Shown one piece after another: positions 25,426 to 60,867 of a stretch of 64,000 nucleotides of DNA; the first letter of the stretch is position 1, and every line of letters starts with the position of its first letter. The translations under genes were made by a program, and so were the position numbers. The notes below the pieces were generated by a model that ran no database searches, had not been told where the DNA came from, and worked only from the letters and a program-made list of their open reading frames with translations. The DNA lies in NCBI RefSeq assembly GCF_014138625.1, contig NZ_JACJHY010000001.1, positions 310,001-374,000 of the forward strand, written 5' to 3'. Origin of the DNA: Aminobacter ciceronei. Its GTDB lineage: Bacteria; Pseudomonadota; Alphaproteobacteria; Rhizobiales; Rhizobiaceae.

Positions 25426-26124
25426 TCAGCCCAGCGCCCGCTCCACCATCGCTTCGGCGTGGATGCCAGTGGTGTCGAACAAAGGCACGGCGCTGTCTTC
25501 CGACCCGACCAGCAGCATGATCTCGGTGCAGCCGAGGATCACGGCCTCTGCCCCGCGCGCGACGAGCCGCGCGATCACCTCGCGATAGGCCTGGCGCGAG
25601 CGTGCCTCGACGCGACCCTGCACCAGCTCGTCATAGATGATGCGATGCACCACCGCCCGGTCCTCGGCCTCAGGCACCAGCACCTCGAGTCCATGTAGCT
25701 CGGCAAGCCTGCCCTTGTAGAAGTCCTGCTCCATGGTGAAGGCAGTGCCTAGGAGACCAACGCGGCCAAGTCCTGCGGCGCGGATGCGTTCGGCGGTCGG
25801 GTCGGCGATGTGCAACAGCGGAATGCCGATTGCCGCCTGCACCTCTGACGCCATGCGATGCATGGTGTTGGAGCAGATGACGACAAAGTCGGCCCCGCCG
25901 CGCTCCAGCCGTCGCGCGGCGCCGATCATCTCCAGCGTCGCCTCCTGCCAACGGTCGCTGCTCTGCAACGCCTCGATCTCGGCGAAGTCGAACGACCACA
26001 TCAGCATGCGAGCCGAATGCAGCCCGCCCAGCCGTGCGCGTACCTGCTCGTTGATGATCCGGTAGTATTCGGCCGAGCTTTCCCAGCTCAACCCGCCGAT
26101 AAGACCAATAACCTTCTGTGGCAT
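25426..26124 (-). CDS. Aspartate/glutamate racemase family protein
   Basis: A 232-residue cofactor-independent racemase. The N-terminus is VIGLIGGLSWESSAEYYR. The two catalytic Cys regions are VVICSNTMHRMA and VILGCTEIMLLV. It would interconvert L- and D-aspartate or glutamate; the exact substrate is uncertain. AGGAG eight bases upstream sets the start. The first 160-185 bp of this gene recur at 28295-28479 as a broken direct repeat. It lies 38 bp downstream of the TetR gene on the same strand. Confidence 0.9.
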   Translation of the reverse strand: MPQKVIGLIGGLSWESSAEYYRIINEQVRARLGGLHSARMLMWSFDFAEIEALQSSDRWQEATLEMIGAARRLERGGADFVVICSNTMHRMASEVQAAIGIPLLHIADPTAERIRAAGLGRVGLLGTAFTMEQDFYKGRLAELHGLEVLVPEAEDRAVVHRIIYDELVQGRVEARSRQAYREVIARLVARGAEAVILGCTEIMLLVGSEDSAVPLFDTTGIHAEAMVERALG

Positions 26125-28294: not shown

Positions 28295-28479
28295 TCCGGG
28301 CCCAGCGTCCGCTGCCCTGCAGCGCCTCGATCTCGGCGAAATCGAACGACCACATCAGCATGCGAGCCGAATGCAGCCCGCCACGTAGTGTGCGCACCCG
28401 CTCATTGATGATGCGGTAATATTCCGCCGAGCTCTCCCAGCTCAAATCCGCCGATCAGACCAATGACCTTCTGAGCCAT
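28295..28479 (-). pseudogene. Truncated, frameshifted copy of the Asp/Glu racemase 5' end
   Basis: The remnant starts with ATG at 28479 and reads VIGLIGG, then is shifted by one extra A near 28444-28446. It continues as SWESSAEYYRIINERV and GLHSARMLMWSFDFAEIEAL, nearly identical to the start of the racemase at 26124, and then ends. About 160 bp match at roughly 85 percent by eye. It has the same orientation as the intact gene, so the two copies are direct repeats around the TetR-glycosyltransferase pair. Confidence 0.85.
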
Positions 28480-33330: not shown

Positions 33331-33765
33331 TCAGCAGGGGCCCTGGTCGTCGATGACGCGATAGCCCGAGGAATCGGCTTCACAGGCGTTCGGGAAGGTC
33401 CGGAGCGTGTCACCGCGGCGGCCGCAAACAGGGCGATACTCCCTGGTACAGAACTGGTCTCCCCGGCCACCGCCGCCACCACCGCCCCAGCCATCGTCAC
33501 CGCCACCACGGCATTCGCCGCCACGGATAATGCGGTAGCCGGCGGCCTCCGCCATGCAGGAATTGGCGAAGGTCTGACGGTCGCCGCCACGGCGCGCGCA
33601 GACCGGGTCATACTCGCGGGTGCAGAATTGCGGGCCCGGATCGGGGCGCGGCGGGCGCGGGCCGGGACCCGGGCCGTCCTCGACGACCACGCAAGAGGCC
33701 AGCATCAGCGACAGCAACGAGGCGACAGTTGCTTTTCGCGCAAAGGTCTTTGCCGAAAAAACCAT
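33331..33765 (-). CDS. Lipoprotein with two Kazal-type protease-inhibitor domains
   Basis: A 144-residue protein with a lipoprotein signal (LASC, lipidated C25), a Pro/Gly linker, and two Kazal-like units joined by a Gly-rich run. Unit 1 has Cys 48, 56, 70 and 85, with FCTREYDPVCARRGGDRQTF and FANSCMAEAAGY. Unit 2 repeats the plan with PVCGRRGDTLRTFPNACEA, ending at C144. Each unit has four rather than six Cys, as in some bacterial Kazal proteins. The family inhibits serine proteases by a substrate-like loop around the second Cys. It probably sits on the outer membrane and guards against extracellular proteases; target unknown. Confidence 0.87.
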   Translation of the reverse strand: MVFSAKTFARKATVASLLSLMLASCVVVEDGPGPGPRPPRPDPGPQFCTREYDPVCARRGGDRQTFANSCMAEAAGYRIIRGGECRGGGDDGWGGGGGGGRGDQFCTREYRPVCGRRGDTLRTFPNACEADSSGYRVIDDQGPC

Positions 33766-34000
33766 GAAAACAGCTCCCTCTCATCCCCGCCCGTGCGGGA
33801 AATGTTCCAGCCCCTGCCCCGATCCTGGCGATTCTGTCAACGAATGCAATCGGGATCGGCGAAACTGGCGCCAACAGGCGCGGCAATCTGGCCAATGGCG
33901 CCTTTAGAAATGTCGTATATTTATGCGACGCTGCGAAGTGCCTACCGCCCTTGCCGCGACATCTTGCAACCTACGCGTTTCCATGCAATATCAGTTTCAG

Positions 34001-34030
34001 TTCGGGCGTTTGCTGACCCGGAGACTGGAA
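34001..34030 (+). promoter_or_regulatory. Conserved leader element 1 of the cold-shock genes
   Basis: A 30-nt block shared with 35157-35186 (26 of 30 identical). It can fold as TTCGGG pairing with CCCGGA (one G-U), loop, then the unpaired GACTGGAA tail. Here it lies about 170 nt before the cold-shock start, so a long leader would separate them. The role is inferred from conservation upstream of two csp genes. Confidence 0.5.
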
Positions 34031-34198
34031 CGTTTTGCACGACCCTTTCCCCGATACTGTGAATCTCTGACGACCCCGTGACTCGGCGGGGGGTTTAATC
34101 GTGCGCAAATGCATGACCGCCAAGCAAACCACCGACGTGCCGCCGACGCCAGGCGGTCGGCATGTCCAGACCACTGAACGGGTGAAGGAGTTCTCCCA

Positions 34199-34411
34199 AT
34201 GACCCAGACCGGTACCGTAAAGTTCTTCAACGCAACCAAAGGCTTCGGCTTCATCACGCCGGATGGCGGCGCGAAGGACGTGTTCGTCCATATCTCCGCT
34301 ATCGAGGCTTCGGGCCTGCGCACGCTCGTCGACGGCCAGAAGGTCAGCTTCGACGTCGAGCCCGACCGTATGGGCAAGGGTCCTAAGGCGGTCAACCTCC
34401 GCGCCGGCTAA
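34199..34411 (+). CDS. Cold-shock domain protein (CspA family)
   Basis: A 70-residue single-domain protein. RNP1 is KGFGFITPD and RNP2 is DVFVHISAI. It binds single-stranded RNA/DNA and acts as an RNA chaperone at low temperature or in stationary phase. AAGGAG precedes the ATG. The leader carries a hairpin element shared with the second csp gene about 1 kb downstream, and a CCCCG/CGGGG hairpin at 34074-34091. An intrinsic terminator follows. Confidence 0.96.
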
Positions 34412-34438
34412 GCCGCGTAAGGTTTTTTGCTTTGAAGA

Positions 34439-34474
34439 GGGGCGCGGTGGATCACCATCGCGCCCTTCTTCTTT
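34439..34474 (+). terminator. Intrinsic terminator after first cold-shock gene
   Basis: GGGCGCGGTGG pairs with CCATCGCGCCC (one G-U) around ATCA, followed by TTCTTCTTT. It ends the first cold-shock transcript. Confidence 0.85.
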
Positions 34475-34618
34475 GGTGGGTGGCTCCGCAATTATCCGTC
34501 GCCAAATCAACGAGATAGTCTCTGCGTCCAGCCGGCGCCACTCTGGCGAGCCACAGCCAACCGTGACATAGTCTTGCCGCGGAGGCAGTATCTGCTTCCC
34601 ACGCAGAGGAGGCAGACC

Positions 34619-35029
34619 ATGAAGTTGCTGAAGTCTCTGGGCGCAATGCTCCTGGCCGCAGGGCTAGGATATGGCGGGCCGGTCGAGGCGATGCCGGCGG
34701 GTAATGCGCCGCAGGCCGATGGCGGGTTGGTGATCCAGGTCCGTGGTTGCCACGGCGACCCGCAGCGCCATTTTGTTCCTCAGTTCGGCCGTACCGAGTG
34801 GCATGTCCACCGCCGCCCCGACTGCCGGCCGATCCGGGTCCGCCCGCCGGTCCAGGTGCGCGACTGCCATCGTGAGGTTCGCCGCCACTTCCTGCCGCGT
34901 TACGGCAACGTGCCCCACCGCCATGTCGGCCCCAATTGCCGCGTGCGTGTCTATTCGAGGTTCGATCCGCTGCGTCCGCGGCCACCCTCCTGCATCCAGA
35001 TCGGCCCGATCCGCTACTGCGAATACTAA
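34619..35029 (+). CDS. Secreted small protein with two His/Arg-rich repeats
   Basis: A 136-residue exported protein with a signal peptide (LGAMLLAAGLGYGGPVEA). The mature part has two copies of a unit of about 36 residues: repeat 1 has GCHGDPQRHFVPQFG then WHVHRRPDC, repeat 2 has DCHREVRRHFLPRYG then PHRHVGPNC. Each has two Cys bracketing an H-rich loop, a layout that could bind metal or form disulfides. The C-terminus, PPSCIQIGPIRYCEY, adds a third Cys pair. AGGAGG upstream is a strong ribosome site. It lies between two cold-shock genes. Family not recognised. Confidence 0.75.
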   Translation: MKLLKSLGAMLLAAGLGYGGPVEAMPAGNAPQADGGLVIQVRGCHGDPQRHFVPQFGRTEWHVHRRPDCRPIRVRPPVQVRDCHREVRRHFLPRYGNVPHRHVGPNCRVRVYSRFDPLRPRPPSCIQIGPIRYCEY

Positions 35030-35059
35030 GCCGCGAAACGCGTTGCATTTGGCCACTTG

Positions 35060-35079
35060 GGCCCGGTAATTGCCGGGCC
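35060..35079. terminator. GC-rich hairpin after the secreted repeat protein
   Basis: GGCCCGG-taattg-CCGGGCC, a perfect 7-bp stem without a T-tract, 30 bp after the stop. It may be a weak terminator or 3'-end stabiliser. Confidence 0.5.
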
Positions 35080-35100
35080 TGAGCAGCCTTAGGACAGGTA

Positions 35101-35127
35101 TCGGCAGGCAAAACTTTTGCTTGCCGA
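35101..35127. promoter_or_regulatory. Very long palindrome upstream of the second cold-shock gene
   Basis: TCGGCAGGCAAAA and TTTTGCTTGCCGA form 13 pairs (one G-U) around a single C, so almost the whole 27-bp element is palindromic. It lies 30 bp before the shared csp leader element and 84 bp before the csp start. It could be a terminator for the upstream gene, an operator or a transcript-end structure; there is no T-tract after it on the plus strand. Confidence 0.55.
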
Positions 35128-35156
35128 TGACCCAAAAATGAACGACAAATTTCCAC

Positions 35157-35186
35157 TTCGGGCATTTGCCGGCCCGAAGACTGGAA
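35157..35186 (+). promoter_or_regulatory. Conserved leader element 2 of the cold-shock genes
   Basis: Second copy of the 30-nt element at 34001. Here the stem is perfect: TTCGGGC pairs with GCCCGAA around an 8-nt loop, followed by GACTGGAA. It ends 24 nt before the start codon, just upstream of the AGAGGAG ribosome site, so it could affect translation directly. Confidence 0.55.
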
Positions 35187-35210
35187 TTGATGGGATCAGA
35201 GGAGTTTCCC

Positions 35211-35423
35211 ATGCCGCAGACCGGCACCGTCAAGTTCTTCAATCATGCCAAAGGCTTCGGCTTCATCACGCCGGACGACGGAGCGAAGGATGTCTTCGTT
35301 CATATTTCGGCCGTGCAGGCGTCGGGTCTTCCCGGTCTTGAGGATGGGCAGAAGGTTTCTTTCGACACCGAGCCGGACAAGCGCGGCAAGGGTCCGAAGG
35401 CCGTCAATCTGACCGTCGGCTGA
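35211..35423 (+). CDS. Cold-shock domain protein (CspA family), second copy
   Basis: A 70-residue single-domain protein very similar to the one at 34199, with RNP1 KGFGFITPD and RNP2 DVFVHISAV. It is an RNA chaperone by family. AGAGGAG precedes the ATG. A hairpin element shared with the first copy lies directly upstream. The pair probably arose by duplication that included the leader element, with the secreted repeat protein gene between them. Confidence 0.96.
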
Positions 35424-57691: not shown

Positions 57692-58429
57692 ATGCTGCTC
57701 TTTGCAGGTCTCGGCAATCCGGGTACGCAATACCAGAACAACCGGCACAATGTCGGCTTCATGGCGGCGGACGCAATTGCCCGCCGCCATTCGTTTTCGC
57801 CCTGGACGAAGAAGTTCAAGGGCATGGTCGCTGAGGGCAATATCGCCGGCGAGAAGATCGTCCTGATCAAGCCTCAGACCTTCATGAACCTGTCCGGCCA
57901 GTCGGTCGGCGAGGCCATGCGCTTCTACAAGCTCGCCCCTGCCGATCTCACCGTCTTCTATGACGAACTCGACCTCGTTGCCGGCAAGGTGAGGGTCAAG
58001 GTTGGCGGCGGCGCCGGCGGCCACAACGGCATCCGCTCCATCGACCAGCACATCGCCAGGGATTATCGCCGCGTCCGCATCGGCATAGGCCATCCTGGCG
58101 TCAAGGAGATGGTCCACGGCCACGTGCTCGGCGACTTCGCCAAGGCCGACAAGGAGTGGCTAGATGTTCTCCTCGACCTTCTGGCCGACAGCGCCGATCT
58201 TTTGACCAAGGGCGATGACAACGGCTTCATGAACAAGGTTACCATCGGGCTACGCGACAAGCTTCAGCCGACTGGTACGAACGACGCGCCACCGCCGAAG
58301 GCCGCCAAACCGCAGGCGCCGAAGGCCCAGAGCCACATTCGCCAGGCCCGACCGAACCAGCCTGCCGTCAAGGTTCCCGAGACCGGGCCGATGGCAGCCA
58401 TGCTGAAGAAGCTGCTCGGCAAGGAATAG
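57692..58429 (+). CDS. pth: Peptidyl-tRNA hydrolase
   Basis: A 245-residue Pth. [20 protein letters not shown] contains the catalytic His, VFYDELDL the Asp, and [13 protein letters not shown] the tRNA-acceptor loop. It recycles tRNAs from drop-off peptidyl-tRNAs. It has a C-terminal extension of about 50 residues, rich in Pro, Ala and Lys and ending [17 protein letters not shown], known from other Rhizobiales as far as I recall. A decayed copy of the last 27 codons lies about 70 bp downstream. Confidence 0.97.
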
Positions 58430-58475
58430 ACTGCACCTCCAGCGAGCGTTAGACTTGATGGTCGCCGCCATCGTG

Positions 58476-58582
58476 CCTGCGCGATAAGCTGCAGCCGAGC
58501 CCGACCGAACCAGCCTGTGGTCAAGCTTCCAGAGACCGGCCCCATGGCTGTGATGCTGAAGAAGCTGCTCGGCAAGGACTGA
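58476..58582 (+). pseudogene. Decayed duplicate of the pth 3' end
   Basis: From 58499 one frame reads ARPNQPVVKLPETGPMAVML then KKLLGKD and stop, 23 of 27 residues identical to the end of pth (58346-58429). Just upstream, in another frame, LRDKLQP matches an earlier pth segment, so a stretch between them was deleted. It is too short and out of frame to be functional. It lies between pth and the RibD-fold gene. Confidence 0.85.
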
Positions 58583-58676
58583 GGGGCCATCGGATTCGCC
58601 CGGCCAGTGAAAGTCCCCTGACACAAGACGACCAGCCGCAATGATAGAACCCATCCCTGACAACAGGGAGCAGATC

Positions 58677-60468: not shown

Positions 60469-60559
60469 GGCAATGAGACCGTCCGATCACCCGGCCTTTG
60501 CAAGCCCGCTTTTCAGTCTGCGCCCTTGCAGCGTTAACCTTTTGCTAACCAAGCCTGAC

Positions 60560-60665
60560 TAGGGTCGCCTGGAGATTTGCAGATCGTCTCCACCTTTGAC
60601 CACGGATGTACTGGCACTGGATGTTGAGACGCTAGAGAAAGGTCGGGGGCATCTCGGCCTTTTTT
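60560..60665 (+). ncRNA. Candidate small RNA with intrinsic terminator
   Basis: In the 470-bp gap after ychF, a possible promoter (TTAACC, 17 bp, GACTAG at 60534-60562) is followed by a TGGAGA/TCTCCA hairpin (60570-60592). About 50 nt on comes a clear terminator, AAAGGTCG/CGGCCTTT (60638-60662, one G-U) with a T-run. No credible protein fits the interval. A short RNA of about 100 nt would explain the otherwise orphan terminator. The promoter call is weak. Confidence 0.35.
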
Positions 60666-60867
60666 GTTTGTCCAGGATGGCGACGTCATTCGGCCAAATC
60701 CAGCACTTGGACCGGCTCGAGGCTCTCTCCTCTTCAGGCAGCCTCATCACCAGCGTTGGACACGATCAACTGGATTGTTCTCGACGGCTCAGCTGCGAAT
60801 ACCTATCTGCGCCCAAGCGACACGGCGGCGATGCTGCCCGCGCAGCAATTGTCTCTTGAGGGGCCGG

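Follow-up and report, generated by a model that had tools for sequence, protein, structure and literature searches.

A conserved hairpin element upstream of rhizobial cold-shock genes as a candidate 5'-terminal leader RNA

The cold box lies at the 5' end of csp mRNAs, which encode cold-shock proteins (Csp), and affects mRNA stability and autoregulation. According to the available text of a study on Escherichia coli, CspA binds its own cspA mRNA, with one site at nt 12-36 among others, prefers YYR and binds the oligonucleotides AACUGGUA (1.24 µM) and AACUGGAA (2.08 µM) (PMC9947658). For A. tumefaciens C58, the accessible part of the report describes a 227-nt 5' UTR of cspA (Atu0106), named C1_109596F, that was found by RNA-seq and Northern blot and received its thermosensor label from an Rfam search (PMC3738593). 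Another RNA tied to cold-shock genes of Rhizobiales lies in the 3'-UTR, where stem-loops akin to the sRNA SmelB053 were found conserved in 29 of 33 3'-UTRs; the available text of that paper does not mention a 5' csp element (PMC3927594). Titles and abstract openings of the openly licensed literature contained no description of the csp leader element analysed here, which stands before two csp genes, csp1 and csp2, in the window, i.e. the whole stretch of 64,000 nucleotides of Aminobacter ciceronei DNA that was studied.

Paired hairpin blocks before csp1 and csp2

The features of the two csp loci are as follows.

33963-33991, plus strand: putative csp1 promoter, with CTTGCAA (-35-like), CAATAT (-10-like) and a 16-nt spacer
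34000-34031, plus strand: csp1 hairpin element, type 1, with the stem 34001-34006/34017-34022 and the conserved flank GAGACTGGAAC
34041-34054, plus strand: csp1 pyrimidine tract GACCCTTTCCCCGA (anti-Shine-Dalgarno, anti-SD), a conserved block whose pairing is predicted in the leader fold
34179-34190, plus strand: csp1 Shine-Dalgarno (SD) region CGGGTGAAGGAG, from sequence and duplex comparison
34199-34411, plus strand: csp1, cold-shock domain protein of 70 aa (ORF; Pfam PF00313, E 6.2e-25)
35120-35150, plus strand: putative csp2 promoter, with CTTGCCG (-35-like), ACAAAT (-10-like) and an 18-nt spacer, of the csp2-type promoter profile
35156-35187, plus strand: csp2 hairpin element, with the perfect 8-bp stem CTTCGGGC/GCCCGAAG and the flank ACTGGAAT
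35190-35212, plus strand: csp2 SD sequence AGAGGAG (35198-35204), looped out by a predicted 6-bp stem extending into the start codon
35211-35423, plus strand: csp2, cold-shock domain protein of 70 aa (ORF; Pfam PF00313, E 2.5e-24)

An earlier note on this DNA had pointed out a 30-nt block that recurs at 34001-34030 and 35157-35186, and the coordinates and the identity of 26/30 were confirmed; the copies differ at block positions 8, 14, 16 and 21 only. The stem that it had drawn can form in both copies (34001-34006/34017-34022 and 35157-35162/35173-35178), and position 21 indeed takes part in a U.G pair in copy 1 and a U-A pair in copy 2. The additional pairs C35156-G35179 and C35163-G35172 make up the perfect 8-bp stem of copy 2. 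The distances from block end to ATG were also given correctly, with 168 nt for csp1 (ATG 34199) and 24 nt for csp2 (ATG 35211). Fold z-scores, calculated with flanks, were -1.9 for copy 1 and -4.1 for copy 2; for csp1 folded from its predicted start, the best structure at 30 °C was an alternative one, in which GUUC pairs with GAAC.

A degenerate pattern covering both copies, allowing up to 3 mismatches, matched twice in the window compared to a mean of 0.00 in 100 shuffles, and in the whole genome (6.77 Mb) it matched at these two sites only. The genome has nine csp-like matches, just two of which carry the hairpin element, and the pattern of a second subtype (type 2, see below) gave no match in it. 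When all 30-mers of the window were compared with each other at 26/30 or better, in direct and not in inverted orientation, 8 blocks were obtained compared to 0 in three Markov controls: two are the csp coding pair, five belong to two other repeats and one is the hairpin block. The window also contains a direct repeat of about 170 bases (25952-26124 and 28306-28479, locally up to 30/30) and two similar stretches 153 bases apart (58341-58430 and 58494-58583, best 27/30).

Divergent from csp1, a small putative lipoprotein with Kazal-type inhibitor domains (PF00050, residues 47-71; PF07648, residues 104-129) is encoded at 33331-33765 on the minus strand, and a small secreted-looking protein without a Pfam match is encoded between csp1 and csp2 at 34619-35029 on the plus strand. 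The window's only Rfam match at gathering score is the alphaproteobacterial sRNA ar35 (RF02346, 50.3 bits) at 60548-60668 on the plus strand. Three further candidates were discarded by eye. An outer helix preceding TTCGGG is strong in copy 1 and is not kept outside the genus; it probably sits upstream of the transcription start. In csp1 of the window, the hairpin loop could make a kissing contact with a GCAAATG loop farther downstream, which is not kept across short leaders, and the ATG of a small upstream ORF in the leader is not conserved.

Distribution and subtypes of the element

The element is conserved upstream of csp genes in related genomes, as seen with a covariance model and with sequence patterns, and is far more widespread than the earlier note had claimed. 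Lack of such conservation, which the note had named as a refutation, was thus not observed. In Aminobacter, a tandem csp pair with a block copy before each gene was present in 10/10 genomes searched. The covariance model R1, built from 15 sequences, matched 71/151 genomes of the family and 56/109 genera at E ≤ 0.1, with one to three matches per genome. The match preceded a csp ORF in 65 of the 68 matched genomes whose regions were examined (the regions of G051, G066 and G145 were left out); in G074, G077 and G141 there was no csp downstream. Four weak second matches on other contigs (E 0.05-0.08) stand outside this tally. Over 76 loci, R1 gave 124 matches above 20 bits, excluding eight on the opposite strand with about 14 bits, and 118 of them stand 53-340 nt before csp; the other six are one near a contig end (L108, 33.8 bits) and five at 20-25 bits.

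Further, the pattern TTCGGGC-N5-12-CCCGGAGACTGGA was scanned, without a structure model, over 84,980 bacterial and archaeal species genomes and gave at least 119 matching stretches. Eighty loci with 85 matches were listed, and 84 of the matches listed precede a csp ORF at a distance of 130-339 nt. The exception among them is an exact match without csp downstream in a gammaproteobacterial MAG (L220), which is probably due to chance. Genera among the matches listed are Mesorhizobium, Aminobacter, Nitratireductor, Sinorhizobium/Ensifer, Rhizobium, Pararhizobium, Ciceribacter, Chelativorans, Bauldia and others; save for the MAG and one match labelled just Proteobacteria, we take all matches listed to be from Hyphomicrobiales. 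A wider model, R2, found matches in 59/397 genomes of an order-wide draw at E ≤ 0.05. Those with 28 bits or more came only from the family of the window and the Bauldia family. In the latter, the match stood before csp in 8/25 genomes, and the other 17 had no match or one without csp. Downstream of 12 of the 13 weak order-level matches examined (21.8-24.3 bits) there was no csp, and the same holds for a match of 28.2 bits (L134).

The two csp genes of the window are paralogues 1 kb apart, and the blocks could accordingly be functionless leftovers of tandem csp copying. We regard this as very improbable: the leaders differ elsewhere, the block recurs across several csp groups, many genera and part of a second family, and this conservation mainly refutes duplication as the sole explanation.

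In Agrobacterium, identified by its telomere resolvase, a csp orthologue carries GTTCGGGCAATTTGCGAGCATGGGAAGGCC with the same spacing to CTTGCC. R1 and R2 both missed this type 2 element in Agrobacterium (R2 reached 9 bits at best) and, therefore, the genome counts obtained with both models are lower bounds. Type 2 pairs GUUCG with CGARC and type 1 pairs CGGG with CCCG, which suggests one 5' sequence closed by different 3' partners in the two subtypes. The type 2 pattern was present in 34/151 genomes of the family compared to 2 genomes for a reversed control pattern, and 28 of the 30 type 2 loci examined precede csp (those of G122 and G099 do not). Taken together, type 1 and type 2 were found in 92/151 genomes, of which R1 accounts for 68 and the pattern adds 24; this union leaves out three R1 and two pattern matches without csp, and the loci were examined in all but four of its genomes. 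Among 25 further genomes matched by neither, 23 yielded csp loci, of which 30, covering part of their csp genes, were examined: CTTGC-spacer-GTTCGGGC was matched exactly in 11 and with one mismatch in a twelfth, and among the others a few looked variant-like by eye and several were without the element. When 11 leaders were chosen solely for their promoter box and an exact 5' arm, CGARC followed downstream in 10 of them.

Predicted start site, RNA pairing and ribosome access

According to the earlier note, the different distances to the two csp genes spoke against copied promoter spacing. This did not hold up, since a CTTG box lies 38 nt (33963) and 37 nt (35120) upstream of the blocks. CTTG begins 37 or 38 nt before TTCGGG in 78/83 unique named upstream regions and lies at -36 to -38 in 102/116 regions of the family set, and the base preceding TTCGGG is G in 77/83 and 90/116 regions, respectively, of these two sets, which have genomes in common. 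The distance from block to ATG varies from 53 to 340 nt. The fixed CTTG spacing, the variable ATG distance and the preceding G tie the element to the start site rather than to the start codon, and by its constant spacing from the promoter box the block is most likely a 5'-terminal mRNA hairpin. Transcription is predicted to start at about 33998-34001 for csp1 and about 35156-35157 for csp2, i.e. probably at or within some 3 nt of the first block base, and, judged from sequence, the element most likely lies inside the transcript. With a start at the first bases of the block, the mRNA would open with the hairpin GUUCGGGC...CCCGRAG, to be followed by a conserved, mostly single-stranded GACUGGA. 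Scanning for promoters of the simple E. coli type gave no match at these loci. For S. meliloti cspA5, four start sites are reported in the available text of PMC5928217.

An inverted repeat that is strongly conserved at a fixed promoter spacing would also suit a site on DNA over +1 to +30, a near-palindromic operator just past the start site to which a repressor or activator of csp binds. Strong sequence conservation by itself could fit such a site, and so does the weak covariation of the broad alignment. There, the true pairing register had 82.7% of cells paired compared to at most 62.4% in registers slid by 1-3, and most measures were no better than in shuffles: shuffles scored as high in 72/500 cases for cells paired, 36/500 for the score, 12/500 for cells changed on both sides and 500/500 for both two-sided pair changes and further pair types. 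An alignment so nearly invariant leaves little room for a strong covariation test. One column pair, 4-27, is U.G in 53/62 and U-A in 9/62 aligned leaders; the wobble, which RNA pairing tolerates, breaks the DNA palindrome and thus points to RNA. The covariation that the earlier note had named as support is clear only in the short csp2 leaders, whose arms are CUUC/GAAG in Aminobacter, UCUC/GAGA in Mesorhizobium and CUCU/AGAG in M. loti. Among five hand-picked arm pairs, these three formed 4/4 Watson-Crick pairs with their own partner and 0-2 with swapped partners, L382 kept 3/4 pairs and L225 three plus a wobble; L384, which needs a bulge, and the Mesorhizobium csp2 leader L203, which keeps the stem and lacks GACTGGA, were left out. 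At the level of predicted pairs, Aminobacter and Mesorhizobium thus show in their short csp2 leaders the compensatory pairing expected of a structured cis-regulatory RNA. Three observations on sequence favour RNA: the U.G/U-A column, the change of the 3' arm between the subtypes and the arm changes in csp2. An operator is also at odds with half-sites and spacing that differ between type 1 and type 2, with related genera that alter both arms and keep the pairing, and with a conserved GACTGGA that has no mirror half. We consider it an unlikely explanation.

A leader RNA could also act as a plain stabiliser, for which any stable 5' hairpin would do. Stems that vary with pairing retained are consistent with this, as are L203 with its stem and no GACTGGA and, by eye, one csp leader (L365, in G035) with another possible hairpin, GTTCACAGAAATCTGTGGATGAAC, at the same place, followed by GGGAAGACC. 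On the other side, few bases of the whole leader are conserved as strongly as the flank and part of the loop, more so than stability alone would need, and the chance that stability is all that matters appears small to us, slightly smaller than that of an operator.

The earlier note had also proposed that the hairpin is a thermosensor or a protein-binding site. Protein binding by the element is possible. Thermosensing by the hairpin itself is not supported by its position, 148 nt (csp1) and 11 nt (csp2) clear of the SD regions, and by the predicted folds, whose energy at 60 °C is still -4.2 (csp1) and -8.6 kcal/mol (csp2). The predicted energy stays negative from 10 to 80 °C, which makes a simple melting thermometer unlikely. 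A zipper-type RNA thermometer of the ROSE or FourU kind does not fit either, with the SD left uncovered and no melting predicted in the physiological range.

Temperature could still switch ribosome access through an anti-SD helix and not by melting of the 5' hairpin. Most long leaders have a pyrimidine tract that could pair with the SD region by complementarity. A tract was recognised in 93 of 105 leaders, for which the duplex energy was -13.98 for matched compared to -12.96 (sd 0.17) for permuted partners, significant for group C1 and not for C2 alone (0.15), with kinship among leaders just partly controlled in these permutation statistics. With type 2 added (129/133 leaders), matched partners gave -13.34 and within-group permuted ones -12.57 (sd 0.12), and none of 5000 permutations was as low, under the same partial control of kinship. 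RNAalifold did not find a long-range anti-SD helix in the leader alignment. A role of the flank GGAGACTGG as an anti-anti-SD pairing with the pyrimidine tract was not supported (-9.96 matched compared to -9.73, reached by 0.049 of permutations and by 0.18 within groups). In csp2 of the window, there is no pyrimidine tract and the leader lacks its long middle portion; block and ATG are 53-56 nt apart in the csp2 leaders of Aminobacter and Mesorhizobium compared to 185-260 nt for the remaining csp2-type leaders in the set. An RNA thermometer that works through the anti-SD helix would agree with the better pairing of matched leaders and with E. coli cspA mRNA, which is described as a thermosensor in the available text of PMC9947658. 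It is, however, difficult to reconcile with the stable predicted hairpin and the uncovered SD, and with Aminobacter csp2, which keeps the hairpin without the anti-SD tract, and we judge it about as improbable as the operator.

In sum, the reading that we favour, with a confidence only a little above even, is that csp mRNAs begin with a leader RNA element that acts post-transcriptionally and resembles the E. coli cold box. A shared, conserved csp leader element with compensatory stem changes in divergent lineages is what stands of the earlier note; the thermosensing hairpin is not.

Comparison with the cold box and other csp-associated RNAs

The Rfam cspA thermoregulator, RF01766, was considered and rejected as an identity of the element, since the csp loci scored 48.2 and 29.6 bits with a gathering score of 78. 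The csp1 leader alone did not match any Rfam family up to E 5, and the csp1 coding sequence with its 3' flank alone scored 63.3 bits with RF01766, so the likeness of csp1 to this family resides in the coding sequence. The thermosensor label of C58 may likewise rest on coding-sequence similarity to RF01766. The C58 cspA leader is similar to those described here in that it is a long csp 5' UTR from the same bacterial family (PMC3738593, available text), but the gene belongs to another csp class (KWFN) and the hairpin element is absent from C1_109596F at its published coordinates; in C58, the type 2 element stands before another csp gene (circular chromosome 2173922-2174125). The published Agrobacterium cspA thermosensor label thus concerns another leader. 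The SmelB053-related stem-loops are likewise conserved RNA tied to rhizobial csp genes, but at the 3' end, as far as the available text goes (PMC3927594).

For the cold box-like element that we favour, cspA of E. coli with its cold box and leader may serve as a model of post-transcriptional control. The hairpin would shield the 5' end against 5'-dependent decay, and hairpin and conserved flank together would be bound by the cold-shock proteins themselves; expression of csp would then be set after transcription by message stability and by opening of the anti-SD helix. Aminobacter csp2 would have kept promoter, hairpin and ribosome site, with the long anti-SD part gone. The CspA-bound oligonucleotides, as given in the available text of PMC9947658, resemble the conserved ACUGGA of the rhizobial leaders. 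The Csp-binding step is a guess, since YYR is a highly degenerate motif and the affinity shifts little when one base of the oligonucleotide is changed. Tentatively, and with a probability well short of even, we propose a hitherto undescribed leader family of Hyphomicrobiales in which Csp binds the ACUGGA flank and the loop, decay is coupled to anti-SD opening and the 3' arm has been exchanged between clades, as an independent counterpart of the cold box.

The element would be similar to the cold box of E. coli cspA if, as promoter spacing predicts, it lies near the 5' end of csp mRNA. It is different in that it comes from another bacterial class. If the hairpin is a target of Csp, two bacterial classes would have reached the same control at the 5' end of their csp messages.
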